A stretch of 57,659 bases of DNA from Phaeospirillum sp. (GTDB lineage Bacteria; Pseudomonadota; Alphaproteobacteria; Rhodospirillales; Magnetospirillaceae). This document shows positions 7,166 to 48,413 of this stretch, piece after piece. A model generated the notes under the pieces. That model was not told the DNA's origin. It made no database searches and saw nothing but the letters and a program-made list of their open reading frames with translations. The stretch spans positions 1 to 57,659 of the forward strand of contig JAVBXM010000243.1 in NCBI GenBank assembly GCA_030824585.1, given 5' to 3'. A program made the translations under genes and the position numbers. How positions within the stretch are numbered: the first letter of the stretch is position 1; each line of letters begins with the position of its first letter.

Positions 7166-7921
7166 CTATTCCAGTACAAAGTAAGAAACCCGCGAGGCAT
7201 GCGGGAACCGTTTCAGCCTGACGGCGTTCAGGCCGAACGTTTCCATCAGGGCCAGGGTCTCACCGGGAGAATCCGGATCGTTCAACTCGTCGAAGCCGAG
7301 AACGCTGCCCTTGGTCAGACGCGGCCGGATCATCTCGATGCACTTCTTGGTCGGCTCGTACAGATCGAAGTCGAAATAGGCCAGCGCGATGATGGAGTGC
7401 GGCGCCTCCTTCAGATAGATGGGCAGTTGCTCCGTGGCGTCACCAGCCCTGAGGTCGAATTTTTTCAGGTGCGAGAGGGGGTTGAGCCCCTCGTGGATCG
7501 TCATGATCTCGTGCAGATAGGATTTGTAGTCCGGCGTGGTGGCCAGATTGCCCGGCCGCATCAACTCGGCGGCACCGTCCTCGGGGACCACCGCGGGAAA
7601 GCCCTCGAAGGTGTCGAAGCCGATCAGCGGCCGATGACGGTTGAAGGGCTCGTAGATGCCGCGTAGCGCGGCGAACAGCGCCAGGTTCTGTCCCCAGCGG
7701 GTGCCGAACTCCATGACGCAGCCCTGCACATCGAGAATCTGCCGGTAGAGGTGGTCCATGAACAAGACGCGGGCCAGGCTCTTGGACTCCAGGAACAGGC
7801 CCAGATTGGACAGCAACTGGTCCTTAGGATGGGGGGCCTTTTGCAGCATGTCCGCCATCCGGCCACGCAAATCCGCCTCGTTGTTGGACGCATAGGTGCT
7901 GATGCCGGTGTCGAGTTCCAT
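7166..7921 (-). CDS. TylF/macrocin-type O-methyltransferase-like protein
   Basis: The 251-residue protein has a SAM-binding segment VMEFGTRWGQNLALFAAL, the family block IGFDTFEGFP, and a YFDFDLYEPTKKCIEMIRP segment typical of TylF/CmcI-like methyltransferases. In those enzymes these acidic residues bind the metal. I chose ATG 7921 (MELDTG) because AGGAG lies seven bases upstream; in-frame starts at 7927 and 7966 also exist. It sits between the aldo/keto reductase and the radical-SAM gene with short spacing. A sugar hydroxyl is the likely acceptor, by inference. Confidence 0.65.
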   Translation of the reverse strand: MELDTGISTYASNNEADLRGRMADMLQKAPHPKDQLLSNLGLFLESKSLARVLFMDHLYRQILDVQGCVMEFGTRWGQNLALFAALRGIYEPFNRHRPLIGFDTFEGFPAVVPEDGAAELMRPGNLATTPDYKSYLHEIMTIHEGLNPLSHLKKFDLRAGDATEQLPIYLKEAPHSIIALAYFDFDLYEPTKKCIEMIRPRLTKGSVLGFDELNDPDSPGETLALMETFGLNAVRLKRFPHASRVSYFVLE

Positions 7922-7975
7922 ACCCATACTCCTAGGAAAACAATGAGTTCCAGATGACCATCCCACCGCGCGGCG

Positions 7976-9097
7976 TCACCGCTCGCGGATCAGGACGGGA
8001 ATGTCGCGCTTGCCCTCGAAGGCGATGACCCAGGCCCAATAGCGGATGCGGCCTTCCACCAGATCGTACTCGTAGCCCTCGTCCGGATTATCGGCACGGC
8101 GTACCCGCACCGGCTTCAGGAATTCGCCGTCCAGCATCTGCCGGGCCAATTCGGAGGGGCTGGGCGTCATGTGGTGGATATTGGCCTTGGCCTCTTCCAG
8201 GCTGCGATAGACCTTGCCTCCCCCTCCGGCGGGCGCGGCCCGCACCGAGTTCACGGGAATGATCGCGGACGCCGCTCCGGTCAGGCGGTCGATCTCGGTC
8301 GCATCCGCATCCGACAGAACCAGTGAACCGGCCTGGGCATTTTGTCCGGCGTGCTCGGCCCGTCCGGCACGGGGAATGACCACCACCGGCGGCCGGCGGA
8401 TCAGCCAGGCCAGCGCCAAGGCGCCCACCGAGCATTGGTAGCGCCCGGCGATTTCGGCCAGCATGTCGCGCCGCGCCGAGCTGCCGCAGATGTGTCCCTG
8501 GTCCAGCGGGCTGTAGGCGAGGAAAGTGATGCCGCGCGTCTGGCAATAGGGCAGGACGTCCTGTTCCACCGAACGGTCGAACAGGTTGTATTCCGCCTGC
8601 ATAGTGGCGAGGCGGGCATGGCGCAGGCTGGTGCGGGCCTCCTCCAACTCGCGCAGGGAGAAGTTGCACACGCCGACGTCTCCGATCTTGCCTTCGGCGG
8701 CCAGATCGTCCAGCGCCCCCATGGTCTCGGCGATGGGGATCGACGGGTTGGACCAGTGAACCTGGTACAGCTCGATCCGCTCGCGCCCCAGGCGCCGCAG
8801 GCTGTTGTCCAAAGACACGCGCATGCGTTCGGGTGTCAGGTTCTCGGGCGAGACCTTGGAGGCCACCACCACGTCACGGCCGGCGATGGCGCGGCCCACC
8901 ACCTCCTCGGAATGGCCGGCGCCATAGACCTCGGCGGTATCGACGAAGGTCACGCCGCGCTCGAAGGAAAGAGCAAGGGAGGCCAGCGCGCCTTCATCGC
9001 GACCGTAATCGGGCGTATCCACGCCCACCAGCCCGCCGGTACCCACGCCGATGGCGGAAATCCGTGGCCCAGAGACCCCGATGGTCTTGTACAGCAT
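7976..9097 (-). CDS. Aldo/keto reductase fused to a C-terminal ParB-like domain
   Basis: Residues 1-290 form an aldo/keto reductase with the catalytic tetrad visible as D53 (DTAEVYG), Y58, K81 (VVVASK) and H114 (YQVHW). Such enzymes reduce carbonyls with NADPH. The last 60 residues (about 313-373) do not belong to that fold. They read LARQMLDGEF-LKPVRVRR, then YEYDLVEGRIRYWAW, then RDIPVLIRER, which follows the ParB/sulfiredoxin-like pattern (P.xVR ... G..R..A ... IPV.vR). This assignment is by eye. In a sugar locus it may reduce a keto-sugar; the role of the tail is unknown. Confidence 0.75.
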   Translation of the reverse strand: MLYKTIGVSGPRISAIGVGTGGLVGVDTPDYGRDEGALASLALSFERGVTFVDTAEVYGAGHSEEVVGRAIAGRDVVVASKVSPENLTPERMRVSLDNSLRRLGRERIELYQVHWSNPSIPIAETMGALDDLAAEGKIGDVGVCNFSLRELEEARTSLRHARLATMQAEYNLFDRSVEQDVLPYCQTRGITFLAYSPLDQGHICGSSARRDMLAEIAGRYQCSVGALALAWLIRRPPVVVIPRAGRAEHAGQNAQAGSLVLSDADATEIDRLTGAASAIIPVNSVRAAPAGGGGKVYRSLEEAKANIHHMTPSPSELARQMLDGEFLKPVRVRRADNPDEGYEYDLVEGRIRYWAWVIAFEGKRDIPVLIRER

Positions 9098-9130: not shown

Positions 9131-11341
9131 TTAGACCGCCACCTGGGACGGCTCCTCCGCCCCACGCAGCGCCATGCCGTAATGCCGCGCCAGCAGAATA
9201 GCCTCCGGACAGGGGAAGCCGGTGATCAGGGTTCGCGACAGATAGAGGTTCAATTCGTCGAGCACCACCTGCGCCTCGTCCAGCCGCTGCTGCTGCAGCA
9301 GCAGATGGACCGCCATGGGCGCGAAATCGTGAAGCACCGTGTAGTCGTTGTACTTGGCGGCGGAGAAGGCCGCGAGGAACGGCTCGGTCCATTCCGGCAC
9401 ACCGTTGTTGGCCAGCCCGAACAGCGCCCGCAGGTAGAGGCGCTGGGCATTCTCGTTGATGGGGAACATGACCAGGGAGCGGTCCAGCAAACCTGCGGCC
9501 TTGGCGTATTGCAGGGCCGCCTCGCCACCGGTAAGCGTCAACCCCTTGGTGATGGCCATGTCGGCCTGCTGGTTCAGCGCGTAGCTGCGCCACACCGTTT
9601 CCTCGGGCACGATCTGCGCCAACTCGGGGCAACGCTGACGGATGCGGGCATCGGCAATCCAATAATAGCCGTTCACCTGGTCCAACTGACGCGGAAAGCT
9701 TTCGTTGGGACGTAATTCCATAGCTCCCGACGCCACCCGGCTGAACAGGATATCGGCCTGATCGGGATGGCCACCCCAGCGCACGCACAATGCCCTCGTA
9801 TAGGCTAGGCCGAGGGAATTGGGGAATTCCTCCAACCCATGGGTCACGGTCTCCCACACCGGCGTCAGCCAGTTGCCGTCGGGCACGTCCACGTCGGCGA
9901 TGGCCCGGCGGACCCAGTTGGGGGATACCGTCTGCTCGCGCAGGCGCTCGATCTGATCGGGGCGAGACTTCAGCAGCCAGGACTCGTTGCAGCACACCCA
10001 GGTCCGCCGAGGTTCTGGAACCGGCCCCTGGGCCTTGCACCTGCCGCCCACCTCCACCTGGGTGGCAAACAGCATGTGGCGGACGAAGCGCATGGCCCGC
10101 CGATGCTCGTCGTCGGGCAGCAGGTCGGTCAATTCCGCCTCCAGCCGCCCGGCTTGGGGCAGGAATTTCTCGATCAGCGCGCCGTAATTGTGCAGGTGGC
10201 CTTCTACGTCGGCCACCGGGTCGGTCATGCCATAGGTGGGGAAACAGTGGAAATGCTCGCTGAAGATATAGGGAAATCCGTTTTCTTCCTCGACCAGATG
10301 CAGCGCGCCGTGGGCCAGGGATTCGTACGGCCTCGTACTGATGGAATTGGCGGCACGCGTGCTGTTGATGGTGAAGCGCGTGTCGCGCATCAGCGCGTCG
10401 TAGCCGTCATCACTCAGATAGGCATCCAGCAGACGCACGCTGAAGCGCCTGTCCACCTGGGCCAGCGATACGATGCGCTGGCGCTTGTCGCGGTAGAAAT
10501 CGTGGGTCAGCCCACCGGTAAAGACCAGATCGTGGGCACGATTGGGCTTGGCCAGGAAGATGTCCTTCAGCCCCGTCACCTTGGGAACGCGGAGCGAGAT
10601 GGGATAAGACGCGACGGTGGCCGGCACGCCGTGGCCGCGCGCCAGCTCCACCACTTCCCAACTGCTGCCGGCTGCGACCAGATCCACCTCGGGCATGATC
10701 TCGTCGAGCATCTCATAATACCATTCGTGGTCATGGGGATTGACCACCACCGGCGCGCCCAGGTCGCGCAGGCCCACCGGCACGACCTTGAAATCGTCCA
10801 CCAGGACCATATCCACCGGCGCCCCCGGCGGAACCATGGTGACGATGGACTGGCCCAACGGCAGGCTCCGCTCCGGCCCGCCGATCAGGTGCGAGGTCAG
10901 CACCACCTCCATACCGGGAATGGAGAGAAACCCATTCAGCCGATCGGCACGGCCGAAGTCGGAATGGAACACCAGACGGAAGGTCTTGCGCTCCATCAGC
11001 CGCGACAGCCGCCCCAGCCGTTCGTCCTCGCCGCCCACGGCGAGGCCTTCGGCCACCCAGCGCCGCGCCTCGTCGTCATGGCCGTCGCGCCACGCACCAT
11101 AGGCCCGGTAGAGGCAGGCGAAGGCGGTGTGGATACCATGGTGGTCCAGCACCTTCTCGCCGCCCAGCCGGTTGCCGATCAGGATCAGCGAGCAGCCGCG
11201 CAATTCCGGCCGGTCGGCGCCGAAGCGGGCGACATAGATGTGGTCCTGGGCCGCGAAGGCGGCGTCGAGGGAGGCATGGATGCCGGGAATCAGCGCGTTG
11301 GGCAGACGGAGCGGGAAGTGGTTGCGGACGATGGCGGTCAT
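9131..11341 (-). CDS. Large putative GT-B glycosyltransferase with helical C-terminal region
   Basis: The 736-residue soluble protein has a GT-B-like middle part. It includes VVNPHDHEWYYEMLDEIMPEVDLVAAGSS and STRPYESLAHGALHLVEEENGFPYIF, the latter resembling the donor-site region of GT4/CgeB-like enzymes. From about residue 480 to the end the sequence is alpha-helical and repeat-like, TPR-like in character (for example LGLAYTRALCVRWGGHPDQADILF). The start ATG at 11341 has AGGA six bases upstream. The gene lies eight bases after the sugar kinase. Donor and acceptor are unknown, and the family assignment is tentative. Confidence 0.5.
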   Translation of the reverse strand: MTAIVRNHFPLRLPNALIPGIHASLDAAFAAQDHIYVARFGADRPELRGCSLILIGNRLGGEKVLDHHGIHTAFACLYRAYGAWRDGHDDEARRWVAEGLAVGGEDERLGRLSRLMERKTFRLVFHSDFGRADRLNGFLSIPGMEVVLTSHLIGGPERSLPLGQSIVTMVPPGAPVDMVLVDDFKVVPVGLRDLGAPVVVNPHDHEWYYEMLDEIMPEVDLVAAGSSWEVVELARGHGVPATVASYPISLRVPKVTGLKDIFLAKPNRAHDLVFTGGLTHDFYRDKRQRIVSLAQVDRRFSVRLLDAYLSDDGYDALMRDTRFTINSTRAANSISTRPYESLAHGALHLVEEENGFPYIFSEHFHCFPTYGMTDPVADVEGHLHNYGALIEKFLPQAGRLEAELTDLLPDDEHRRAMRFVRHMLFATQVEVGGRCKAQGPVPEPRRTWVCCNESWLLKSRPDQIERLREQTVSPNWVRRAIADVDVPDGNWLTPVWETVTHGLEEFPNSLGLAYTRALCVRWGGHPDQADILFSRVASGAMELRPNESFPRQLDQVNGYYWIADARIRQRCPELAQIVPEETVWRSYALNQQADMAITKGLTLTGGEAALQYAKAAGLLDRSLVMFPINENAQRLYLRALFGLANNGVPEWTEPFLAAFSAAKYNDYTVLHDFAPMAVHLLLQQQRLDEAQVVLDELNLYLSRTLITGFPCPEAILLARHYGMALRGAEEPSQVAV

Positions 11342-11349
11342 CGCGAATC

Positions 11350-12357
11350 CTATATGCTCGGCCGGTTGGCATAGGCCTCCAGGATGGCCGCACCATCCTC
11401 ATCCACCTTGAACGGCACCTGGATCAAGGTGCCCAAGGCCTTGCGCACCGCATCGGCGGAGCCTTCCGGCATGTAGAACGCCATGAAGCCGGCGCCACCG
11501 GCCCCCAGCAGCTTGCCGCCCAGCGCACCCGCCGCCCTGGCCTTCTGGTAGATATCGTCGATGGCCGAGGAACTGATGCAGGGGTCCAGACTGCGCTTGA
11601 GGCGCCAGGTTTCGTCCAGCATGCGCCCGAAATCGTCCAGGTCGCCCCGGCGCAAAATCTCGGCCGCCTCGAACACCATCTTGTGCATGCGCCGCAGCCG
11701 GTCGTTCTTGGATTCGATGTTCTCGACGATCTTCTTGGCCATGTCCGACGAAAAACGGTTGGAGCCGGTATAGACCAGCATCAGCCGGCTTTCCAGAAGG
11801 GCCAGACGCTCGGGCGGCAGGGCCAGGGGCTCGACCGCGATGGAGCCATCAGTGTTGAAATGGATGACGTTCAGCCCGCCATAGGCCGCCGCCACCTGAT
11901 CTTGCGACCCCACGGTGTCGCCCAGCAGGTTCTGCTCGAGATCGATGGCCGCCAGGGCCAATTCGTGCTTGGTGATATCTTCGTGCCGGAGTGCCTTCAG
12001 CACATTGATCAGTCCCACGGCGAAGGACGAACTTGACCCGATGCCGGTGCGCGCCGGCAAATCGCCCTGGTGATGAATCTCCAGGCCGCGGCTGTCGTCG
12101 AAATCATAGGCCGGCATGGCCGCGCGGATGGCGGGATGAAGGATTTCCCGATAGGTCTGCACCACCTCGATATGGGACCACACGATGCGGTGCACATTCT
12201 GGAAATAGGCGGGCAGGTAGCGGCAGGTGATGTAGCAGTACTGGTTGATGGCCGAGGACAGCACCGCCCCGCCATTGTTCAGGTACCACGCAGGGTAGTC
12301 CGTTCCTCCGCCGAAGAACGAGACGCGGAATGGGGTTCTTGAGACGACAAAGGACAT
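11350..12357 (-). CDS. hddA: GHMP-family sugar kinase, D-glycero-D-manno-heptose 7-phosphate kinase-like
   Basis: The 335-residue protein shows all GHMP marks: an N-terminal RTPFRVSFFGGGTDYP, the ATP loop GIGSSSSFAVG at 105-115 and a C-terminal KLLGAGGAGFMAFY. The FFGGGTDYPAWY block is characteristic of HddA, which phosphorylates heptose 7-phosphate at C1 on the way to GDP-heptose. The adjacent guanylyltransferase and GDP-sugar dehydratase genes support this. I chose ATG 12357 (MSFVVSRTP) over the longer ORF because the family begins there. GmhA and GmhB are not in the window, and related kinases act on other sugars such as fucose or octose phosphate. Confidence 0.7.
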   Translation of the reverse strand: MSFVVSRTPFRVSFFGGGTDYPAWYLNNGGAVLSSAINQYCYITCRYLPAYFQNVHRIVWSHIEVVQTYREILHPAIRAAMPAYDFDDSRGLEIHHQGDLPARTGIGSSSSFAVGLINVLKALRHEDITKHELALAAIDLEQNLLGDTVGSQDQVAAAYGGLNVIHFNTDGSIAVEPLALPPERLALLESRLMLVYTGSNRFSSDMAKKIVENIESKNDRLRRMHKMVFEAAEILRRGDLDDFGRMLDETWRLKRSLDPCISSSAIDDIYQKARAAGALGGKLLGAGGAGFMAFYMPEGSADAVRKALGTLIQVPFKVDEDGAAILEAYANRPSI

Positions 12358-12456
12358 TTTCTCATGCCTTGCTTGGAAAAACTTCCGTCGCGACACCCAC
12401 GTTCTGGGGCGCATCGTGCAAGGCCCTATCGGACGATGAATCGCGTTAAGAAATGC

Positions 12457-13167
12457 TTATGCGAGCCCCAGTAACCGGGCGATAAACGCCTCGGCCTGGA
12501 CAACGGATTCGGGCGTTCCGATATCGAGGAACGGCCCCGGGCTGACCTCGACCGCCAGCCGGGCGCCACCGGCCAGCAGGCCGGGAATGACGTCGGTTTC
12601 CATGCTCAGCGCCGTCCCGGCGGCAAAGCCGGCCAGCAGGTCCTTGCGGAACAGATAAATTCCACCGTTGATCAGGCCTCGGCCCGGCCGCTTCTCGAAA
12701 AAGCCGGCAAGCCGTCCCTCGCCATCCACGGCCAGCGAGCCGTAGCGGGAGGTATCGTCCACCGCGATCCCGACGATGGCCCCGTCCAGGCCCGCTTCCC
12801 GCACCCGGCGCACCAGCCCGGCCACATCCACCTCCAGCAGGGAATCGCCGTTCAGCACCAGCACCCAGTCGCCGCAGAGATCGAGACAGGACACCACCGC
12901 CCCGCCGGTCCCCAGCGGGGCCCGCTCCATTATAGTCCTAAGGGCGAGGCCACCGGGGCGCCCGGCCGCCCAGTCCTCGATCTGCCCGGCCATGTGGCCG
13001 ATGGACAGCAAGATATCGCCGACGCCCCGCCGGCTCAGCCACTGGGCCACCCAGTGCAGGAACGGCTCGCCCCGCACCGGGATCATCGGCTTGGGGATAT
13101 GGGGAAAGAGGCCGGCGATGCGGGTGCCCTTGCCGCCGGCCAGGACGATGGCGGTGACCTTGTCCAT
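12457..13167 (-). CDS. hddC: Sugar nucleotidyltransferase, heptose 1-phosphate guanylyltransferase-like
   Basis: The 236-residue protein has the nucleotidyltransferase signature VLAGGKGTR at 8-16 followed by PKPMIPVRGEPFL, then GTGGAV, LVLNGDSLLEVD with the metal-binding Asp, and FEKRP. It most resembles HddC-type enzymes that join a sugar 1-phosphate to GTP. The pairing with the HddA-like kinase supports a GDP-heptose-type product. The start ATG at 13167 lies two bases after the stop of the upstream dehydratase. The identity of the sugar and of the nucleotide is inferred. Confidence 0.65.
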   Translation of the reverse strand: MDKVTAIVLAGGKGTRIAGLFPHIPKPMIPVRGEPFLHWVAQWLSRRGVGDILLSIGHMAGQIEDWAAGRPGGLALRTIMERAPLGTGGAVVSCLDLCGDWVLVLNGDSLLEVDVAGLVRRVREAGLDGAIVGIAVDDTSRYGSLAVDGEGRLAGFFEKRPGRGLINGGIYLFRKDLLAGFAAGTALSMETDVIPGLLAGGARLAVEVSPGPFLDIGTPESVVQAEAFIARLLGLA

Positions 13168-13169
13168 GG

Positions 13170-14183
13170 TCAGCGGTTGGGATAGGTGCGGCCGGCGCGG
13201 ATGGCCTCGCGCCAGTATTCCATCAGGTCGGTCATGGTCTTCTCGAAGGGGATCACCGGCTCCCACCCCGTATGGGCCCTGAACTTGGCGGTGTTGGGCA
13301 CCTGCAGGTCGGCGTCGATGGGCCGCACCCGGCCGGGATCGGTCTCCACCGCGATGTCCTTGCGGGTGGACAGCGACAGCAGGTGATGCAGCATGTCCTC
13401 CACCGTGCACGAGAAGGTGCCGCCGATATTGTAATAGGCGCCCGGCTGGGGATCGACGGTGACCAGCAGGTAATAGGCCCGCACCGCGTCGCGCACGTCA
13501 GCCCAGGTGCGCATGGATTTCAGGTTGCCGGTCTTGACCACCGGCGGGATGATTCCCGCCTCGATCATGGCGATCTGCTTGGCGAAGGTGGACTCGGCGA
13601 ACACGTCGCCGCGCCGGGGGCCGGTATGGGTGAACATGCGGGTGGTCATCACCCGCATGCCGTAGGCCTCGGCGTAATAGCGCCCCACCAGATCGGTGCC
13701 CACCTTGGAGATGGCGTAGGGCGAAGCCGGGTGGAAGGTGCACTCCTCGTCGATGGGCAGCTTCTCGGCCGGCACCCGGCCGAACACCTCGGACGAGGCG
13801 CAGACATGGATCACCGGCCCGCTGCCCAGCGGCCGCAGGGCCTCCAGCAGCCGGGCGGTGCCCATGATGTTGGTGTCCAGCGTGTCGAGCGGCGCGGTGA
13901 AGCTGGTCTTGGGATAGCTCTGCGCCGCCAGGTGGAAGACGTAGTCGGGCTTGACCTCCTCGACCATGCGGATCAGCGAGACGGTATCGCGCAGTTCGAA
14001 ATCCACCAGATGCACCCGGTCACGCTCGTTGATCCGCCCGATCAGGTGCCGCAAATTGTCCAGCGGACTGCGCCAGCGGCAGGCTCCATAGATCTCCCAG
14101 TCGGTGTGCTCCAAGAGGAAATCCACCATATGGGAGCCGACCATGCCGGTGACTCCGGTGATCAGGGCGCGCTTTTTCTGCAT
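13170..14183 (-). CDS. GDP-mannose 4,6-dehydratase-like SDR (possible GDP-heptose 4,6-dehydratase)
   Basis: The 337-residue extended SDR has TGVTGMVGSH at 9-18 for NAD(P) binding, a conserved HLAAQS, SSEVFG, and an intact catalytic Y156-AIS-K160. The later RMFTHTGPRRGD segment resembles GDP-mannose 4,6-dehydratases. In known 6-deoxy-heptose pathways, a dehydratase of this type acts on GDP-D-manno-heptose, which suits the HddA/HddC-like neighbours. It is the only one of the four SDRs here with a complete YxxxK. The product would be a 4-keto-6-deoxy sugar nucleotide. Confidence 0.75.
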   Translation of the reverse strand: MQKKRALITGVTGMVGSHMVDFLLEHTDWEIYGACRWRSPLDNLRHLIGRINERDRVHLVDFELRDTVSLIRMVEEVKPDYVFHLAAQSYPKTSFTAPLDTLDTNIMGTARLLEALRPLGSGPVIHVCASSEVFGRVPAEKLPIDEECTFHPASPYAISKVGTDLVGRYYAEAYGMRVMTTRMFTHTGPRRGDVFAESTFAKQIAMIEAGIIPPVVKTGNLKSMRTWADVRDAVRAYYLLVTVDPQPGAYYNIGGTFSCTVEDMLHHLLSLSTRKDIAVETDPGRVRPIDADLQVPNTAKFRAHTGWEPVIPFEKTMTDLMEYWREAIRAGRTYPNR

Positions 14184-14197
14184 TCCGTTACTCCTCC

Positions 14198-14234
14198 CTC
14201 AATCGCCGGGCGGGCGCGGTGCGCCCTTGGCTCC
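14198..14234. repeat. Dispersed CGCCGGGCGGGCGC-type intergenic repeat, copy 1
   Basis: The sequence between the dehydratase and the next SDR contains a block running from CTCAATCGCCGGGC to GCGCCCTTGGCTCC. A closely matching block is at 33931-33968. The reverse complement of its core matches the repeats near 27008-27070 and 54049-54112. The GGGCGC and GCGCCC halves can pair as a short hairpin. Confidence 0.65.
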
Positions 14235-14292
14235 CGCGCCATAAGGCACGCGCCCCCTTGGGCCTAACCCAATCCCCATGTGGGATCGGGTC

Positions 14293-15273
14293 TTAGGGCC
14301 GGGGGCAGTCGAAGGCCTGTCGGTACCATTCGATGGTGCGCGAGAAGCCGTCCTCCAGCGAGGTCCTGGCCTCGAAGCCGAGATGGCGCTTGGCGAAGCC
14401 GGTATCGAAGATACGCTTGCCGATGGTGCGCGGCTTGGAGATGTCGTACTGCACCTCGGCGGTGTCGTAGCGGTCGACCTTGATGGCGGTCTCGACGATC
14501 TGCTTGACCGAGTGCGCGGTGCCCGAGGCGATGTTGACGGTCAGGAACTGGTCCGGCTTGGCGAAGGCGGCGAACAGTCCGTCCATGAAGTCGTCGATGT
14601 AGATCAGGTCGCGCACGTCGGTGCCGTCGCCCCACACCACGATGGGGGCGTGGCGCTCGATCACCCGGCGGATCTGAGCGGCGGTGACGTGGGACTTGGC
14701 GAAGTCGAACTTGTCGCCGGGGCCATAGACGTTGGAGGGGCGGATCACCACCGTGGACATGGGGCGGTTGGCGATCTTCTCGGCGTAGGTACGGCACAGA
14801 ATCTCGGTATAGCGCTTCATCCAGCCCACCGGATAATAGATCGGCGGCGGATCGGCCTTGAACATGTCCTCTTCCTTCAGCGCGTAATCCTCGCCCAGGT
14901 CGGGATAGGCGGCACCGCTGGAGATGAACAGGAACTTCCGCACCCCGGCGCGGTGGGCGGCCTCGAGGATGCGGGCGTTCATGGAGACGTTGGGCGTCAC
15001 GTGCACCAAGGGCGTGGCGGCCATCACCGCCGCGCCGGCCGTGTTGGCCGAGCACATGAAGACGTAATCCACCCCCTCGGTGGCGCGGCCGCAATCGCCG
15101 TAATCCTCGAAATCAGCCTTCATCCATTCCAGGGAAGGATGCTCGCGGTTGGGCGGGCGCGAGAAATGGGTGCCGCGCACCTTGGCGCCTTGGGCCAGCA
15201 GCCGGCTGGTGATGGCGGACCCCAGGAAGCCGGTGGCACCGGCAACCAGAACCTTCTTACCCTCGAACATCAT
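14293..15273 (-). CDS. NDP-sugar epimerase/dehydratase-family SDR
   Basis: The 326-residue protein has the Rossmann motif VAGATGFLGSAI, an FISSGAAYPDLGE segment, RPSNVYGPGDKFD and WGDGTDVRDLIYIDDF, placing it among extended SDRs acting on nucleotide sugars. The YxxxK position reads V149-G-W-M-K153, so the lysine is kept but the catalytic tyrosine appears replaced. The start ATG at 15273 overlaps the stop of the RmlC-like gene by ATGA, so the two are coupled. It likely epimerises or reduces the keto-sugar produced upstream, but the altered site leaves this open. Confidence 0.7.
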   Translation of the reverse strand: MMFEGKKVLVAGATGFLGSAITSRLLAQGAKVRGTHFSRPPNREHPSLEWMKADFEDYGDCGRATEGVDYVFMCSANTAGAAVMAATPLVHVTPNVSMNARILEAAHRAGVRKFLFISSGAAYPDLGEDYALKEEDMFKADPPPIYYPVGWMKRYTEILCRTYAEKIANRPMSTVVIRPSNVYGPGDKFDFAKSHVTAAQIRRVIERHAPIVVWGDGTDVRDLIYIDDFMDGLFAAFAKPDQFLTVNIASGTAHSVKQIVETAIKVDRYDTAEVQYDISKPRTIGKRIFDTGFAKRHLGFEARTSLEDGFSRTIEWYRQAFDCPRP

Positions 15274-15779
15274 TCAATCCCCTGGTCGCGTCTGGAAACG
15301 ATCGGATCATTGATGGGCCACCAGAAATCATAGCTGGGGTCGTTCCACAGGATGGTGAACTGCCCGGCCCGATCGTATTGGGTGTTCTGCTTGTAATGGA
15401 AGATGGCGCTGTCGCTCAGCACCACGTGGCCGTTGCCGAATTTCGGCGGAATCAGCACCTGTTGGCGATTGCGCTCCGACAGGGTGAACGAGGTCCACTT
15501 GCGGTACTGGGGCGAATCGGGGTCGTTGTTGACCACCACCAGATAGAACTTGCCGTGCAGGCACGACACCAGCTTCCAGGTGCCGCCGTCGCCATGGATG
15601 CCGCGCAGCACGTGGCGGGTCGACATGGAGATGTCGTCTTGGATGAAGTCCACGGCGATGCCGGCCTCGTTATAGAGGACACGGTTGTAGATCTCCACGT
15701 ACTGGCCGCGAAAATCCTCGAAGATGGTGGGGGGCGTGATCAGCAGCACGCCGTCCAGCGGCGTCTTATCGACCTTCAT
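15270..15779 (-). CDS. dTDP-4-dehydrorhamnose 3,5-epimerase (RmlC)-like cupin
   Basis: The 169-residue cupin has the RmlC-type active-site block VLRGIHGDGG with His62 after an FIQDDISMST strand. It also has KLVSCLHGKFYLVVV and an IPPKFGNGHVVLSD segment. RmlC enzymes epimerise C3 and C5 of 4-keto-6-deoxy sugar nucleotides; related MlghB/DmhB-type enzymes do so on GDP-heptoses. Its position beside the GMD-like dehydratase and the SDR fits that role. I start it at ATG 15779, since upstream sequence overlaps the NUDIX gene. The substrate is inferred. Confidence 0.7.
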   Translation of the reverse strand: MKVDKTPLDGVLLITPPTIFEDFRGQYVEIYNRVLYNEAGIAVDFIQDDISMSTRHVLRGIHGDGGTWKLVSCLHGKFYLVVVNNDPDSPQYRKWTSFTLSERNRQQVLIPPKFGNGHVVLSDSAIFHYKQNTQYDRAGQFTILWNDPSYDFWWPINDPIVSRRDQGIE

Positions 15780-16380
15780 TGTCCTGTCCTCTCCTCTTCT
15801 CGGCGTGCACTCGCGCCTTGATCTCGTCCACCGGGGCGCCGAGCAGGTCAATCCCCAGCTTGGCGGCGACCAGCCCAAGGAAGCTCAACGCGGCGATCTG
15901 CTCCAATTCATCGGCCAGCACCATCTCGCGCAGGCGGGCGCGGGGCAGGACCAGCAGCTCGATGCCCTCTTCCGCCGTCAGAGAGGGATCGGGCACGGCG
16001 TCCAGGGCCAGCACGAAATATTCGCGGCGGGTGTTGCGGTCGAGGCGCAGCCGCCCCGGCCCCAGAAGATGGACGCTGCCCGCCCGGTATCCGGTCTCCT
16101 CGGCGATCTCGCGCAGGGCCGCCTGTTCCGGCGTCTCGCCCGGCTCCATGCCGCCGGCCGGCGTCTCCACCGTGCGGTAGCCGAGGTTGGGGCGGAACTG
16201 GCGGATCATCAGGATGTCGCCCTGGGTGGTCAGCACCAGGCAGATCACTCCGTCGGGCTCGACCATGCGGTAATAGGGCAGTTCGTCCGCCCTGTCGGGG
16301 ATGCTCTCCTCGATGACGAACCACGGCGTGGAGAAGGCCAGCTTGTAGCGGATCGGCTTGGGCAGGTCAGAGGAGGTCAC
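15766..16380 (-). CDS. NUDIX hydrolase (ADP-ribose/nucleotide-sugar pyrophosphatase type)
   Basis: The protein has a complete NUDIX box, from GGMEPGETPEQAAL through REIAEETGY, preceded by RQFRPNLGYRTVETPAGG as in ADP-sugar pyrophosphatases. These hydrolyse a nucleoside diphosphate linked to another group, using Mg2+ bound by the REIAEE glutamates. The GTG at 16380 overlaps the end of the transketolase subunit gene and gives 204 residues; a longer version from ATG 16398 is possible. It overlaps the next gene by 14 bases. Its substrate may be an intermediate of this sugar pathway or a damaged nucleotide sugar. Confidence 0.75.
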   Translation of the reverse strand: MTSSDLPKPIRYKLAFSTPWFVIEESIPDRADELPYYRMVEPDGVICLVLTTQGDILMIRQFRPNLGYRTVETPAGGMEPGETPEQAALREIAEETGYRAGSVHLLGPGRLRLDRNTRREYFVLALDAVPDPSLTAEEGIELLVLPRARLREMVLADELEQIAALSFLGLVAAKLGIDLLGAPVDEIKARVHAEKRRGQDNEGR

Positions 16381-17293
16381 GGATCGCCTGCTCCACATGG
16401 CCTTGGGAGAGGCCGCAATGCCCGGCGGCCCATTCCCTGGACGCCGAGCCCAGCAAGAAGCCGTCGCCCAGCGACAGCCGCTTCAGCCGGATGCCCAGGC
16501 CGTGGTCGGCCATGGTCTCGGCGACGATGGTGCCTACTCCGCCGGAGGACACCGCTTCCTCCAAGGTGACGACCGCCCGCTTGCCGGACAGCAGCGCGGC
16601 GAGGCGGCCGCCATCCACCGGCTTCAGGCGGAACAGATCGATCACGCCCACGCTGAGCCCGTCCTTGGCCAGGGCCTCGGCGGCGGCCTTGGCGGTCCAG
16701 GTCTGCACGCCGGTGGAAACGATCACCGCGTCCGTCCCCTCGGCCACCATGCCCAGGCCGGCCGAGAAATCCATGCTGGCCGCGTCGTAGAGGGCGGGCA
16801 GCACTTCCTTGTCCATGCGCACATAGCCGGGGCGGCGCGCCCCGTGGGCCAGCTTGACGGCGGCGAAGGCGGTGGTGGCGTCGGCCGGATTGTAGATGTG
16901 CATGTTGCCCAGCGACCGCAGGATGGCGATGTCCTCGGTGCCGTGATGGGTGGGGCCGTCCACGCCATAGGCCAGGCCGGCGCCGACCCCGATGATGGTG
17001 ACCGGAAGGTTGGGCACGCAGATGTCCAGCTTGACCTGCTCGAAGCAGCGCGCGGTGACGTGGGCGATGATGCCGTAGACGAACACCCGTTTGCCGGCCA
17101 GGGCCATGCCGCCGGCCACGCTCATCATGTTCTGCTCGGCGATGCCCACATTGAAGGCGCGCTCGGGCATTTCGGCACGGATGGCATCCAGCCCCATGGC
17201 GCCCATGTCGTTGGTCAGGATCACGGCGGCCGGGTCGGCCCGCATGACCTCGATGACGCTGTTGAAGACCGCGTCGCGGAAATCCAGTCCCAT
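16367..17293 (-). CDS. Transketolase C-terminal subunit (split transketolase)
   Basis: The 308-residue protein corresponds to the pyrimidine-binding and C-terminal domains of transketolase, with FNVGIAEQNMMSVAGGMALAG containing the conserved ThDP-activating Glu, then GPTHHGTEDIAILRSL. The N-terminal half is the adjacent gene at 17304, so the enzyme is split into two chains as in many biosynthetic loci. Transketolases move a two-carbon ketol unit between sugars. Being inside a sugar operon suggests a dedicated two-carbon transfer, perhaps making a higher-carbon sugar; this is inference. Confidence 0.85.
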   Translation of the reverse strand: MGLDFRDAVFNSVIEVMRADPAAVILTNDMGAMGLDAIRAEMPERAFNVGIAEQNMMSVAGGMALAGKRVFVYGIIAHVTARCFEQVKLDICVPNLPVTIIGVGAGLAYGVDGPTHHGTEDIAILRSLGNMHIYNPADATTAFAAVKLAHGARRPGYVRMDKEVLPALYDAASMDFSAGLGMVAEGTDAVIVSTGVQTWTAKAAAEALAKDGLSVGVIDLFRLKPVDGGRLAALLSGKRAVVTLEEAVSSGGVGTIVAETMADHGLGIRLKRLSLGDGFLLGSASREWAAGHCGLSQGHVEQAIRDLL

Positions 17294-17303
17294 GGCGGTC
17301 CCC

Positions 17304-18140
17304 CTATGCCAGTTCCGCGATGCGAGCCCGAAGGATCTCGCGCGCGGTGGTGATCTCGTCGCCCTTGGGCATGCGGTGATGCCACAGGGGGGAATTCTCC
17401 ATGAACGGCACGCCCTTGCCCTTGGTGGTATGGGCGATGATGGCGAAGGGCTTGCCCTGCTCGCGGTCGCGGGCCCGGGTCAGCGTCTCGATCAGGCCGG
17501 AAATGTCGTGGCCGTCCGTGTCCACCGCCTCCCAGCCGAAGGCGCGGAAGCGCTCGGACAGGGGTTCCAGCGTCAGGTAATTGTCGGTGAAGTCGGTGGC
17601 GCCCAGCCGGTTGCGGTCGACGATGGCCACCAGATTGTGGAGCTTCTGGTGGCCGGCCAGCATGGCGGCCTCCCAGATGGAGCCCTCGTTGCACTCGCCG
17701 TCGCCCAGCACCACGAACACCCGCCAGGGAGCCTTGTCCAGCCGTCCGGCCAGGGCCATGCCGGTCCCCAGGCCCAGCCCGTGGCCCAGCGAGCCGGAAC
17801 AGGCCTCGATACCGGGAATCTCCGTGTCGGGATGGCCGGGCAGCAGACTGCCGGCCCCGGCGAAGCGCGACAGTTCCTCGGGCGGAAAGAAGCCCCTGTC
17901 GGCCAGGGCGGCGTAGAGGGTCAGGCAGGCGTGGCCCTTGCTGAGGATGAAGCGGTCGCGGCCTTCCCAGCGCGGCTCCTCGGGGCGCAGGCGCAGCACG
18001 CCGCCGTAGAACAGGGCGGTGGCCACGTCGGCCCAGGAATAGGCCGGCGGGATGTGGCCCTTCTTGCCGCAAAGCGCCGTCTCGAGCGCGGCAAGGCGCA
18101 ACTCGGCCGCCTTGCGGGTCAGGAATCCGATATTGTGCAT
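17304..18140 (-). CDS. Transketolase N-terminal subunit (split transketolase)
   Basis: The 278-residue protein carries the ThDP pyrophosphate-binding motif GDGECNEG at 146-153, continuing into SIWEAAMLAGH and ending near VDRNRLG. It also has FILSKGHACLTLYAALA and the GSLGHGLGLGTGMALAG loop. It pairs with the C-terminal subunit eleven bases downstream. Length is typical for an isolated N-terminal half. The native cofactor is thiamine diphosphate with Mg2+, and the pair should act in the cytoplasm. Donor and acceptor sugars are not known. Confidence 0.85.
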   Translation of the reverse strand: MHNIGFLTRKAAELRLAALETALCGKKGHIPPAYSWADVATALFYGGVLRLRPEEPRWEGRDRFILSKGHACLTLYAALADRGFFPPEELSRFAGAGSLLPGHPDTEIPGIEACSGSLGHGLGLGTGMALAGRLDKAPWRVFVVLGDGECNEGSIWEAAMLAGHQKLHNLVAIVDRNRLGATDFTDNYLTLEPLSERFRAFGWEAVDTDGHDISGLIETLTRARDREQGKPFAIIAHTTKGKGVPFMENSPLWHHRMPKGDEITTAREILRARIAELA

Positions 18141-18165
18141 GGCGGCACGCCCTCCCCCGCGATTT

Positions 18166-19161
18166 TCAGTCGCGGAAATAGTTCACTTTCTTGTCGTGCT
18201 CGTCGGCATGGGACAGGAACCATTCCCAGGTTCCCTTCAGCCCCTCGTACAGCGAGACCTGGGGCTCGAAGCCGATCACCCGCTTGGCGTTGGTACCGTC
18301 CATAACCCGCTTGGGAAAGCCCGACGGCTTGGTGGTGTCGAAGAACGCCTCGAAGGGAGTGACCTTCTGCAGGGTCTCGACCATCTCGCGGATGGTGATG
18401 CCGTAGCCGCAGCCCAGGTTGATAGGCTTGCTTTCGGTACCGCGCAGGCAGGCCAGGATGATGCCGCGCGCGCAATCGGTGGCGTGCAGGAAGTCGCGGA
18501 CCGCCGAGCCATCGCCCCAGATCAGCACCGGCTTGTCGCCGCGCCGCACCCGGGCCATCAGGGTGGGAATCACCATGGCGTTGGCTTCGTCGAAATTGTC
18601 ACCGGGACCGTAGATGTTGGACGGCCGCACGATGGCGAAATTATCCAGGCCGTACTGGATGCGATAGGCATCCACCTGCAGCTCGGCCATGCGCTTGGCC
18701 CAGCCGGGGAACATGTCCATGGGCGGCTGGCTGAAATCGTTGTCCTCCTCGCGGAAGACCTCGGCGCTCTGATAGGCGCCGATCGAGCTGGTGTAGAGCA
18801 CCTTCTTGGCGTTGTTGCGCCGCGCCGCCTCCAGCATGTTGGTGTTCATCATCAGGAGCGGCACGAAGAAGCTGGCCGGCTTCTCCTTGGTCACCACCAC
18901 CGAGCCCTTGATGCCCGCCACGTGGAAGACGTAGTCCACGCCGTTGGTCACGTCCAGGCAGAAGCCCAGATCGGACAGATCGCCATAGACGTGCTTGGCC
19001 TTGGGGTGGACTTCCAGGCGATCGAGGGAGACGCTGGTCACCTCGGCGCCGGCCTCGCACAGCAGGCGGACCACCTCGCGGCCGATCATGCCGGTGCCGC
19101 CGGTGACGATGGCCTTGCGGCCGGCCAATTGGTCGAGGATGTCGGCGGGAAGGCTGGTCAT
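18166..19161 (-). CDS. NDP-sugar epimerase/dehydratase-family SDR
   Basis: The 331-residue SDR has IVTGGTGMIGREV, HVAGIKGSV, YTSSIGAYQSAE, RPSNIYGPGDNFDEAN and WGDGSAVRDFLHATDCARG, clear marks of nucleotide-sugar SDRs. The YxxxK position reads P152-G-W-A-K156, with lysine kept and tyrosine apparently replaced, as in the paralogue at 14293. The start ATG at 19161 lies two bases after the stop of the E1 beta gene. Its operon position between two ThDP enzyme pairs suggests it processes their substrate or product. Confidence 0.7.
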   Translation of the reverse strand: MTSLPADILDQLAGRKAIVTGGTGMIGREVVRLLCEAGAEVTSVSLDRLEVHPKAKHVYGDLSDLGFCLDVTNGVDYVFHVAGIKGSVVVTKEKPASFFVPLLMMNTNMLEAARRNNAKKVLYTSSIGAYQSAEVFREEDNDFSQPPMDMFPGWAKRMAELQVDAYRIQYGLDNFAIVRPSNIYGPGDNFDEANAMVIPTLMARVRRGDKPVLIWGDGSAVRDFLHATDCARGIILACLRGTESKPINLGCGYGITIREMVETLQKVTPFEAFFDTTKPSGFPKRVMDGTNAKRVIGFEPQVSLYEGLKGTWEWFLSHADEHDKKVNYFRD

Positions 19162-19163
19162 GG

Positions 19164-20231
19164 TCAGAACGGTCCCCTGAAATGCTTGTAGAAATCGGTC
19201 ATGGATTTGTGGGTCGGAATGGGCACGCCGTGGTCGGCCTTGCCCCTCACCAGCTTTGCCACCGCGTCGATGGTCAGGTGCAGGTCGGGGTAGTAGACGT
19301 CCTCCAGCGACTTGGCGGTGGGGCACGGGGCCAGAGCCATGCCCAGGTTGACCACCGGGGCCTTCAAGACACCGGGATCGCTTTCCGCCACGATGCGGCA
19401 AACCTCGGCCGACACGCCGTAGGGCAGCCACGAGGTGTCGGCGACCACCAGCTTGCCGGTCTTGGTGACGCTGTCCATGATCATCTTGCGGTCGGGCCGG
19501 GACACGCAATGCAGGTCGATGACCTCGCAATCGATGCCGTGCTGGGCCAGATGGGCGGCGGCGCGCCGGGCTTCCAGCACCATGATGGAGGTGGCGACGA
19601 TGGTCACGTCCTTGCCCCGGCGCTCCAGCCTCGAGCCGAACGGATCGGTCACCGGCGGATGCTGGTCGGTGTCGAACGACAGGTCGTACATCAGGCGATG
19701 CTCGAACGACACCACCGGGCCCTTGTGGGTCCTCACCGCGTGGTCGTAGGTGCGAAGGATGGCCTCGGGGGTGGACGGCATCACCACGGTCAGGCCGGGA
19801 ATATGGGCGAACAGCGATTGCAGGCTCTGGGAATGCTGCGCGCCTTGCCCCCACGACCGGCCGATCACCATGCGGACCAGCATGGGAACCTGGAACAGGC
19901 CGCCGAACATGTATTTGTACTTGGCCGCCATGTTGATCAACTGGTTGACCGCCAACAGGCCGAAATCGGCGCGAATATGGGTGTTGATGGGGTAAAGGCC
20001 GTTGATGGCCCCGCCGACGCACAGGCCGGTGACGGCGTCCTCGGACAGCGGCGTCTCGATCACCCGGCCGGGGAACTCCTTGTGCAGGTCCGACGTGGTG
20101 CCGAAGATGCCCTTATGATCGGTGACCCCTTGGCCGATGATGATGGTGTTGTCGCTCTCGGCCATGGCGCGGCGCATGGCGGTGGCCAGTCCGTCGCGGT
20201 AGGTCATGCGGGGAGGCAGGCTGATGGTCAT
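19164..20231 (-). CDS. Dehydrogenase E1 component, beta subunit (ThDP-dependent)
   Basis: The 355-residue protein matches E1 beta subunits of 2-oxoacid dehydrogenases. It has MTYRDGLATAMRRAMAESDNTIIIGQGV, RVIETPLSEDAVTGLCVGGAINGL, a QGAQHSQSLQSLFAHIPGL block and VVMPSTPEA. With the alpha subunit immediately upstream it should decarboxylate a 2-oxoacid on thiamine diphosphate. No lipoyl E2 or E3 gene is nearby, so the carbon unit may go to another acceptor, as in ThDP enzymes that build branched sugars. That last point is inference. Confidence 0.8.
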   Translation of the reverse strand: MTISLPPRMTYRDGLATAMRRAMAESDNTIIIGQGVTDHKGIFGTTSDLHKEFPGRVIETPLSEDAVTGLCVGGAINGLYPINTHIRADFGLLAVNQLINMAAKYKYMFGGLFQVPMLVRMVIGRSWGQGAQHSQSLQSLFAHIPGLTVVMPSTPEAILRTYDHAVRTHKGPVVSFEHRLMYDLSFDTDQHPPVTDPFGSRLERRGKDVTIVATSIMVLEARRAAAHLAQHGIDCEVIDLHCVSRPDRKMIMDSVTKTGKLVVADTSWLPYGVSAEVCRIVAESDPGVLKAPVVNLGMALAPCPTAKSLEDVYYPDLHLTIDAVAKLVRGKADHGVPIPTHKSMTDFYKHFRGPF

Positions 20232-20242
20232 GGCGGCGGCTT

Positions 20243-21172
20243 TCAGTAGACGTCGGTCAGCAGGTCGTCGAGGCCGGGCAGTTCGCCCGCCTCGGCGAAG
20301 GCGACCGCCTGATCGATCTCGGCATCCAGGGCGGGCTTCAGCTCGGCCACCAGGGCGGTATCGGCGCACAGCGGGTCCTTGGCCATCCAGGCTTCCACCT
20401 CCGCCTGGGAACGGTAGCCGGCGGCGAAGTCCTCGCCCGGCCCCACATGCTCCTTGTAGCGGCAGGTCATCACCTCCATCACCCGGGGGCGGCCGTCGGC
20501 GCGCATGGCGTCCGTGACCTGCCGCGTGACATCGCCGATCTTGAGGAAGTCCCAGCCCTCGTCGATGCGCACCGTCTCGATGCCGTAGGAGCGGGCATGC
20601 TCGAGAATGCGGTACGATTGGCGCTCGGCCAGGCTGGCATGCACCGCCAGCCCGTTGTTCTCGCACAGGAACAGGGCCGGCAGCCCATAGAGCGAGGCGA
20701 GATTGAGGGATTCGTGATAGGTGCCCTGCTCGGTGGCGCCATCGCCGAAACAGACGACGCTGAGGCCGGGCTTCTTGAGGATGCGGTTGGCCATGGCGCC
20801 GCCCACCGCGACGGAAATGGTCGAGCCCACCACCGCCGAGGCGCCCATGACCCCCACCTGGGGGGCCGCCAGATGCATGGAGCCGGCCTTGCCGCCCGAC
20901 ACGCCGTTGCGCCGGCCGTACAGCTCGGCCATCAGTTCGGGAAGGGGGCCGCCCTTGGCCATGTAGAAGGCATGGCCGCGATAGGTGATGTAGACCGCGT
21001 CCTCGGGGCGCAAGGCCTCGCAGACCCCCACCGCCACGGCCTCCTGGCCGATGGACAGGTGGACGGGACTTTGGATCTTGTCGCTGGGATAAAGCTCGAT
21101 GACTTTTTCCTCGACAAGACGGATACGGAGCGCCTGCCGGAACAGCTCCTGATAGCGGTCGTTTCGTGACAT
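20243..21172 (-). CDS. Dehydrogenase E1 component, alpha subunit (ThDP-dependent)
   Basis: The 309-residue protein has the ThDP-binding motif GDGATEQG at 143-150, continuing TYHESLNLASLYGLPALFLCENN, and the family blocks YITYRGHAFYMAKG and GGKAGSMH. It is typical in length for pyruvate or acetoin dehydrogenase E1 alpha. The ATG at 21172 is used here; an in-frame ATG at 21193 is also possible. It is the first gene of the minus-strand sugar run, separated by only 44 bases from the UDG-like gene, so co-transcription with that upstream group cannot be excluded. Confidence 0.8.
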   Translation of the reverse strand: MSRNDRYQELFRQALRIRLVEEKVIELYPSDKIQSPVHLSIGQEAVAVGVCEALRPEDAVYITYRGHAFYMAKGGPLPELMAELYGRRNGVSGGKAGSMHLAAPQVGVMGASAVVGSTISVAVGGAMANRILKKPGLSVVCFGDGATEQGTYHESLNLASLYGLPALFLCENNGLAVHASLAERQSYRILEHARSYGIETVRIDEGWDFLKIGDVTRQVTDAMRADGRPRVMEVMTCRYKEHVGPGEDFAAGYRSQAEVEAWMAKDPLCADTALVAELKPALDAEIDQAVAFAEAGELPGLDDLLTDVY

Positions 21173-45031: not shown

Positions 45032-45163
45032 GCCCATTCCCCTCGTGTCCAGGCTCGAGACTATGCCAAAGGTTGGCGTCGGGCAAGTAAGTGTTGGTGC
45101 AATTCTGAGGCGCAATGTGATGGGGGCGGGGGATTTCTCCTCCGCCCCCCAATGGGTCCGCCG

Positions 45164-48012: not shown

Positions 48013-48022
48013 GGGATGGGAC

Positions 48023-48400
48023 CTATTCCAGGGTCTTGAGGTAGGCGTCGTAGGCGGCCTGATCCATCAGGTCGTTCAGTTCGGCCGGGTTGGCGAGCTT
48101 CAGCTTGAAGAACCAGGCGGCACCCTCGGCGGCCTCGTTGACCAGGCCGGGCTGGTCGACGATGGCCGCGTTGCCGGCGGTCACCGTGCCCGACACCGGG
48201 GAATAGACCTCGGACGCGGCCTTGACCGATTCCACCACGGCGGCCTCGGCGCCCTTGGCGATTTCGCGGCCCGCTTCGGGGACCTCGACGAACACCACGT
48301 CGCCCAGGGCGTGCTGGGCATAGTCGCTGATGCCGACGGTGCCGATGTCGCCCTCGACGTCGATCCACTCATGGTCCTTGGTGAAACGCTTGCTGCTCAT
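48023..48400 (-). CDS. gcvH: Glycine cleavage system H protein
   Basis: The 125-residue protein has the lipoyl-domain block [17 protein letters not shown], with the Lys of ESVKA as the lipoylation site. The start ATG at 48400 gives [18 protein letters not shown], the usual N-terminus. H protein carries the aminomethyl group between P and T proteins. It lies between gcvT and gcvPA in the riboswitch-controlled operon. Confidence 0.95.
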
Positions 48401-48413
48401 TGGAAGATTCCCC

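Follow-up and report, generated by a model that had tools for sequence, protein, structure and literature searches.

The window analysed here, i.e. the whole 57,659 nt stretch of DNA from Phaeospirillum sp. (contig C172 of the 4.94 Mb genome G000 in 262 contigs; G+C content 60–70 %), carries a gene cluster that, judging from the predicted enzymes and their conservation, probably makes a GDP-activated, carbon-branched 6-deoxyheptose. Eleven open reading frames (ORFs) form a single run on the minus strand from position 21172 to 11350, with spacings of -32 to +109 bases. The first-pass annotation of this DNA had described an operon-like run, and all the genes it named are indeed minus-strand ORFs of this series. 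Gene identities in the window are based on Pfam matches, plus comparison with solved structures. The run combines GDP-heptose genes with short-chain dehydrogenases/reductases (SDRs) and with two pairs of thiamine diphosphate (ThDP) enzymes, i.e. an E1 alpha/beta pair and a split transketolase, with ThDP and active-site motifs found in all four ThDP proteins. The genes are as follows (counts refer to the 42 related loci described below):

20243..21172, minus strand: E1 alpha, ThDP half of a putative C2 transferase from pyruvate to a ketosugar (PF00676, 173.9 bits)
19164..20231, minus strand: E1 beta (PF02779 and PF02780; no lipoyl domain among the Pfam matches)
18166..19161, minus strand: SDR2, GDP-fucose-synthase fold (Pfam, predicted structure, Foldseek)
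17304..18140, minus strand: split transketolase, N-terminal half (PF00456; nearest to the 6yak N chain)
16367..17293, minus strand: split transketolase, C-terminal half (PF02779/PF02780; nearest to the 6yaj C chain)
15766..16398, minus strand: NUDIX hydrolase, optional accessory (PF00293; 9/42 relatives)
15270..15779, minus strand: RmlC-like 3- or 3,5-epimerase, GDP-4-keto-heptose type (8db5, 5e-35; 25/42 relatives)
14293..15273, minus strand: SDR1, GDP-sugar SDR fold (Pfam, predicted structure, Foldseek)
13170..14183, minus strand: GDP-heptose 4,6-dehydratase-like (GMD-like) protein (7us5, 5.4e-104)
12457..13167, minus strand: HddC-like guanylyltransferase (PF00483)
11350..12357, minus strand: HddA-like heptose 7-phosphate 1-kinase (GHMP kinase; 3k85, 6.4e-36)

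The base sugar is best read as a GDP-6-deoxyheptose, since the dehydratase, epimerase and kinase each appear nearest to GDP-heptose or heptose enzymes among solved structures. The protein first labelled GMD is, by similarity, a dehydratase of the GDP-heptose rather than the GMD type, scoring 351 bits to 7us5 versus 144 bits to E. coli GMD 1db3. Similarly, the protein first labelled RmlC is of the GDP-heptose type, its nearest solved structures being GDP-4-keto-heptose epimerases (8db5), and the nearest solved relative of the HddA-like protein is the heptose kinase 3k85.

Conservation of the E1 locus

Scanning named genomes with an alignment of E1 alpha gave 455 relatives, of which the best 80 were kept; 42 of these 80 loci extend for 8 kb or more to both sides of E1, and all were fetched by E1 alpha similarity alone. 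Their record titles span Alpha-, Beta- and Gammaproteobacteria, Nitrospirota, Marinimicrobia, Elusimicrobia, Planctomycetes, Bacteroidetes (Mucilaginibacter) and others, many being metagenome bins in which single taxon labels may be wrong. Several of the 42 loci come from close Reyranella kin, so that the Fisher p values given below overstate independence.

Among the 42 flank-complete loci, E1 beta was present in 42, the dehydratase in 37 (at an identity of at least 47 % in 32), HddA in 35, HddC in 33, SDR1 in 32, the RmlC-like protein in 25, the aldo/keto reductase (AKR) in 24, SDR2 in 22, the NUDIX protein in 9, and E2 and E3 in none (lowest identities counted as present: dehydratase 32 %, AKR 30 %, TylF 25 %, HddC 21 %). 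Dehydratase, HddA and HddC occur together in 31/42 loci, in varying gene orders, which confirms that the association of E1 with heptose genes is more than chance. The comparison of gene neighbourhoods in other genomes, proposed in the first-pass annotation, therefore recovered the gene set, and the C7–C9 or two-carbon-branched GDP sugar predicted there is supported in kind, with GDP-6-deoxyheptose as the probable base with which E1 travels.

Near-complete GDP-heptose gene sets lie in one place in L223 and L220, the former with gmhA, HddC, a GmhB-like HAD match, HddA, dehydratase, the E1 pair, SDR1 and SDR2. Overall, gmhA lies inside 7/80 E1 loci. In Reyranella-type relatives, a GmhB-like HAD domain is joined to HddC in one protein (L110:16155-17372); this domain is matched in 21/80 E1 loci, and in four genomes (G475, G581, G583 and G586) the HAD domain fused to the in-cluster HddC is the sole GmhB match, which fits a sugar 1,7-bisphosphate intermediate.

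The E1 pair

Neither subunit reaches the pyruvate dehydrogenase (PDH) E1 equivalog cut-offs (E1 alpha 252 bits, cut-off 393.85; E1 beta 231.4 bits, cut-off 321). In a tree of 98 rows, two of which (L118_B1 and L133_B1) are read in the wrong frame, the E1 alpha of the window falls into a clade of 52 rows (support 100/100), separate from the PDH-type E1 alpha encoded elsewhere in the genome (G000:C185; long branch), to which it is 32.5 % identical. With the sequences of the genome's own 2-oxoglutarate dehydrogenase set (G000:C223) as queries, and no PDH E2 as positive control, E2 and E3 were found near E1 in 0/80 related loci, including 0/42 with at least 8 kb flanks. The first-pass annotation had noted that the pair lacks E2 and E3, and had named co-occurring E2/E3 genes elsewhere as grounds for refutation; as far as co-location goes, the relatives do not refute its reading, since the lack recurs throughout them. 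The E1 pair thus looks not to be part of a dehydrogenase complex. That it serves such a complex through an E2 encoded elsewhere would agree with its fold and ThDP site, which are those of PDH E1, but the missing E2/E3 matches, the missed equivalog cut-offs and the separate PDH-type E1 alpha of the genome make this highly improbable.

In a class sample of 385 genomes, 38 had E1 alpha at E<=1e-60, and besides the window's own copy only those of G549 (70 %), G475 (62 %) and G233 (56 %) exceeded 53 % identity. Within the family of the window genome (55 genomes), a close E1 copy is found only in the window genome, the other 12 genomes with a match remaining at or below 47 %; therefore, the cluster looks accessory. 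The sister genome G102 (L090/L051) shares the HAD-UDG flank of the window, followed by a different sugar cassette, i.e. a variable chromosomal site. Viral contigs contained no E1 alpha relative. The plasmid search returned 106 records with a match, all below 60 % identity; of three examined, one is an actinomycete locus annotated without sugar genes, and two are Azospirillum plasmids (L226 and L227) with, by annotation, an E1 pair and a DegT aminotransferase. An E1 pair near a DegT-type aminotransferase was also seen in L097 (by Pfam) and L102 (by gene size and order only), together with HddC/HddA. These four loci may represent a broader E1 module that is also carried on Azospirillum plasmids. 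Some loci join E1 or transketolase with a B12 radical SAM protein, a DegT aminotransferase, an SDR and HddC/HddA.

SDRs associated with E1

The dehydratase was found at E<=1e-80 in 14 of the 385 class genomes. An E1 pair lies in the stretch read in seven of them (G000, G233, G475, G549, G486, G568 and, at a distant 34 %, G330), and not in that of the other seven (G018, G495, G572, G457, G439, G386 and G406); the contigs of G018 and G568 are short, and in G406 the dehydratase is matched only in part. SDR1/SDR2 relatives (at least 33 % identity) occur in six of the seven genomes with E1 and dehydratase, the contig of the seventh stopping early, and in 0/7 of the E1-less ones; they are also missing from the dehydratase loci with transketolase only (L049 and L052). 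SDR1 and SDR2 therefore track E1, which appears to add dedicated SDRs to a base pathway also found by itself.

All three SDRs of the cluster (the third, SDR3, lies downstream of the run) keep the Gly-rich cofactor motif, and none has YxxxK at the aligned site when compared with the canonical Y...K of the dehydratase. SDR1 relatives have Y-x6-K, the Tyr (45/45) being seven residues ahead of the Lys (44/45). In SDR2 relatives the Tyr column holds Phe in 17/24 and Tyr in 7/24 rows, with Lys in 24/24, and D149 and K156 are invariant, while SDR3 relatives have Tyr in 1/11 and Lys in 0/11 rows. These alignments of 49, 26 and 14 rows were reduced to 45, 24 and 11 by dropping identical or over-long rows as well as three rows that lacked the Gly motif pattern, i.e. 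SDR1 of L035, apparently genuine, and two SDR3 rows, of which that of L124 is probably mis-framed and that of L151 probably truncated where its contig begins. Foldseek places the confidently predicted structures of SDR1 (pLDDT 94.0) and SDR2 (pLDDT 92.2) with the folds of GDP-fucose synthase and GDP-mannose 3,5-epimerase, 1gfs being the top match of SDR2; the C. jejuni reductase 8ewu ranks 25th for SDR1 and 30th for SDR2 among the fold matches.

Evidence against a branched heptose and alternative readings

Several observations weigh against a branched GDP-6-deoxyheptose as the product. A C4 reductase with catalytic YxxxK, as expected for a GDP-6-deoxy-heptose pathway, was not found among the cluster's SDRs, and ordinary reduction by SDR1–SDR3 is doubtful because they lack this motif, although the Tyr one turn away in SDR1 could still serve, as an alignment column does not establish the mechanism. 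The HddC-like protein scores far under the curated HddC cut-off (125.7 bits, cut-off 300), with 144.3 bits to the mannose-1-phosphate guanylyltransferase model (cut-off 440), and both the GmhA match (G000:C59, 205 bits, cut-off 209.45) and the GmhB match (G000:C115, 135.8 bits, cut-off 149.6) of the window genome are slightly under theirs. HddA is missing from 7/42 loci and HddC from 9/42; L142 and L144 carry SDR1 but neither dehydratase, HddA nor HddC, and five more loci lack HddA.

A GmhA match is absent from 5/25 relatives' genomes searched (G580–G583 and G586), whose loci (L128, L110, L111, L115 and L124) nevertheless have HddA, HddC and the heptose dehydratase, and, among 16 genomes, from G189 and G475 (the G475 record being the G582 record), while some further relatives' genomes have weak GmhA matches only. 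Another isomerase would therefore be needed in those without a match. A GlcNAc 2-epimerase-family gene lies at the edge of the Reyranella-type cluster (L110:4030-5142). Replacement of GmhA by such an AGE-family isomerase was considered, as the gene is present in L110, L111, L115 and L124, all without a genomic GmhA match, and absent from L121, whose genome has a weaker GmhA match (110 bits), but was rejected: L128 lacks both genes, and L116 and L118 have both.

In half of the dehydratase genomes the stretch read contains no E1, so the base genes do also serve to make plain 6-deoxyheptose. Furthermore, the eleven distant E1 loci read (L096–L106, E1 alpha 45–53 %) pair E1 with HddA (10/11) without a heptose-type dehydratase, the one dehydratase match being at 28 %. 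The acceptor there must therefore differ, and E1 with HddA does not always indicate a 4-keto-6-deoxyheptose; the heptose dehydratase appears to belong to the window's branch of the E1 family and HddA/HddC to a wider one.

Both patterns favour an ordinary GDP-6-deoxyheptose pathway in which the E1 pair and the transketolase serve a different sugar whose genes share the region, as does the sister genome G102, where the cassette at the shared flank is an RmlC-HddC-HddA plus transketolase module. Yet close E1 relatives retain the heptose genes (all three in 31/42) despite differing gene order, and SDR1/SDR2 track E1 and not the base genes. On balance, we consider this explanation unlikely.

The distant loci, with the E1 pair near HddA and no dehydratase in ten of eleven, would also suit an extension of the carbon chain while the sugar is still a free phosphate, yielding a linear higher-carbon sugar instead of a branched nucleotide sugar. 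However, acetyl transfer to an aldose phosphate would chemically be expected to give a 1-deoxyketose, which leaves no C1 phosphorylation by HddA, and what is seen of GmhA and GmhB speaks for a normal heptose 7-phosphate; such an extension is very unlikely. A sugar branched after activation remains our preferred reading.

The split transketolase and the downstream genes

The cluster continues beyond the run. The first-pass annotation had set its edge at 11350; the run of 11350-21172 stands, but the cluster extends to about 2447, because several of the following genes recur in relatives:

9131..11341, minus strand: possible glycosyltransferase (weak Glyco_trans_1_2 match, 24.7 bits, cut-off 25)
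7976..9097, minus strand: AKR, possible branch-ketone reducer (PF00248)
7166..7966, minus strand: NDP-rhamnose 3'-O-methyltransferase-like (CalS11) protein (4gf5/3tos, 9e-63)
6024..7163, minus strand: radical SAM protein (PF04055; SPASM slightly below cut-off; relative in L035/L086)
5053..5895, minus strand: methyltransferase (PF13489)
3424..4716, plus strand: radical SAM protein with a sub-threshold B12-binding match (PF04055; 60–65 % relatives in L034 and L035; present in just 1/42 named loci)
2447..3424, plus strand: SDR3, third fucose-synthase-like SDR (PF01370; 9/42 loci)
1376..2302, minus strand: methyltransferase (PF13649; 25/42 relatives)

The nearest solved relatives of the transketolase halves are the chains of a split transketolase (N half, 6yak, 8.8e-69; C half, 6yaj, 3.9e-44), and its phosphate-binding residues, judged by eye, give a mixed picture. 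Of the 42 loci, 11 have a split transketolase as second ThDP pair and 10 have a second E1 pair instead, the two never occurring together (Fisher p=0.04), while 21 have neither. Among cultivable carriers, Reyranella soli has two E1 pairs, Catenovulum maritimum E1 only, and Marinomonas aquimarina E1 with the transketolase; the second E1 alphas read in frame form a separate clade of 13 rows (support 100/99). AKR matches (30–53 % identity) occur in 18/21 loci with a second ThDP pair versus 6/21 without (Fisher p=4e-4), and a CalS11-like (TylF) methyltransferase in 8/11 transketolase loci versus 4/31 others (Fisher p=5e-4). The split transketolase thus looks like a second, exchangeable C2 module, with statistics weakened by locus kinship. 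We suggest tentatively, with less than even confidence, that it adds a second C2 unit.

Transketolase makes sedoheptulose 7-phosphate in central metabolism. The split transketolase could likewise only supply this compound for the pathway, leaving the branching to E1, an explanation that is compatible with our reading of E1 and that we regard as possible but somewhat unlikely. HddA accompanies the transketolase in 8 of the 17 split-transketolase loci fetched without window-type E1 (L037, L038, L040, L041, L045, L049, L051 and L052), as would be expected of a supply role, but not in the stretch read of the other 9; moreover, 31/42 E1 loci have no split transketolase, the second E1 pair that takes its place in 10 loci should not make sedoheptulose 7-phosphate, and the transketolase keeps company with the CalS11-like sugar methyltransferase and the AKR. 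Transketolase N-half matches (E<=1e-40) occur in 84/199 genomes of the order, mostly as frames of about 270–430 residues and some longer; a further N half of the window genome lies at G000:C59.

In L037, L038, L040, L042 and L051 the split transketolase has a B12 radical SAM protein and a 2-hydroxyacid dehydrogenase as neighbours. The latter was found in these 5 of the 9 transketolase loci without window-type E1 that were searched (17 fetched) and might make hydroxypyruvate as C2 donor in that module; it was present in 0/80 E1 loci, and hydroxypyruvate was rejected as transketolase donor in the window.

Elsewhere in the window, a protein at 34022-35488 combines PfkB and cytidylyltransferase domains and is HldE-like, so that an ADP-heptose route is probably also present; the region 43355-49535 encodes an EAL-domain protein and glycine cleavage genes (GcvP C-terminal match, GCV_T).

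Proposed pathway

What is observed is the gene content, the enzyme families, their conserved association and the lack of E2/E3 matches nearby, whereas all substrates, the C4 position, the sequence of steps and the transketolase step are inferred. In this pathway, the dehydratase would form GDP-6-deoxy-4-keto-heptose, in which the RmlC-like enzyme would set C3 and/or C5. The E1 pair, with no E2 beside it, would decarboxylate pyruvate and place the C2 unit onto the C4 ketone, giving a nine-carbon product with a tertiary alcohol and an acetyl branch, which the AKR or SDR proteins may reduce or otherwise process. In the same pathway the split transketolase, replaced by another E1 pair in related clusters, would transfer a second C2 (hydroxyacetyl) unit, and the methyltransferases would decorate the sugar. 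It is tempting to speculate, though this is doubtful, that these loci form a widespread modular line for heptose-derived sugars with two C2 additions (9 to 11 carbons), i.e. an E1 acetyl step plus a slot for transketolase or a second E1, followed by paralogous SDRs without YxxxK that possibly carry out a non-standard (e.g. redox-neutral) step on a tertiary ketol.

Comparison with known systems

The dehydratase, epimerase and kinase types resemble those of the GDP-6-deoxy-heptose pathway of the C. jejuni capsule, with GmhB outside the cluster in both (PMC10680097). In contrast to that pathway, the window adds ThDP enzymes, has GmhA outside as well and carries SDRs without YxxxK.

For the E1 pair, the closest likeness is to alpha-KADH2 pairs, which add pyruvate-derived C2 branches to keto sugars (PMC12247030). 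They also occur without E2/E3 (aldgamycin, kosinostatin and KbDH-alpha/beta, PMC12247030; AviB1/AviB2, PMC4753412), and 4-keto nucleotide-sugar genes adjoin them, as here (dehydratase in 37/42 loci). The evidence comprises feeding and knockout for aldgamycin and in vitro pyruvate–ketone coupling on analogues for KbDH, the others being proposed (PMC12247030), such as AviB1/AviB2 as the C2-branching pair in avilamycin, and AKR reduction of such a branch has been shown for Pau7 of paulomycin (PMC4753412). Alpha-KADH2 pairs are reported in antibiotics, whereas here the pair accompanies GDP-heptose genes, mostly in Gram-negative groups; the likeness is one of gene arrangement. The antibiotic loci presumably hold dTDP-hexose genes.

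YerE of yersiniose, to which the ThDP enzymes had first been likened, proved the weaker analogy. In the window, PF00676 lies in one protein and PF02779/PF02780 in another, unlike the YerE-type architecture, which we take to be a single chain. The outcome would be similar, since YerE adds a pyruvate-derived C2 branch to a 4-keto sugar in lipopolysaccharide (LPS), but it is a decarboxylase-family enzyme acting on a CDP-hexose, i.e. of a different ThDP family from the window E1 (PMC12247030). The window pair instead resembles the alpha-KADH2 enzymes from aldgamycin, avilamycin and kibdelomycin synthesis (PMC12247030, PMC4753412), and its split transketolase recalls that of miharamycin and amipurimycin, for which hydroxyacetyl branching of a keto sugar is proposed but unproven; the review counts 13 putative split-transketolase branching sequences, which all come from streptomycetes and of which none has been characterized in vitro (PMC12247030). 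Here, the split transketolase occurs with GDP-heptose genes in Proteobacteria and others. A link to bradyrhizose was dropped, as the available text of the O-antigen paper contains neither 'transketolase' nor 'pyruvate dehydrogenase' (PMC4743980).

In the review, E1 pairs and split transketolases that branch sugars belong to secondary metabolism, while branching in LPS is ascribed to YerE-like enzymes (PMC12247030). Searches of the open-licence literature listed no paper that places either ThDP pair in a GDP-heptose locus. The loci analysed here point to branching of GDP-heptose by E1-type, and perhaps by transketolase-type, enzymes in many lineages, and labels such as 'pyruvate dehydrogenase', 'transketolase' and 'GDP-fucose synthase' in such loci should not be taken at face value. 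As the substrate can be made in vitro, the split-transketolase step and the ketone-acceptor chemistry are directly testable. What is surprising in comparison with the known systems is the breadth and the pattern of two ThDP modules on GDP-heptose, while each of the chemistries has a precedent.

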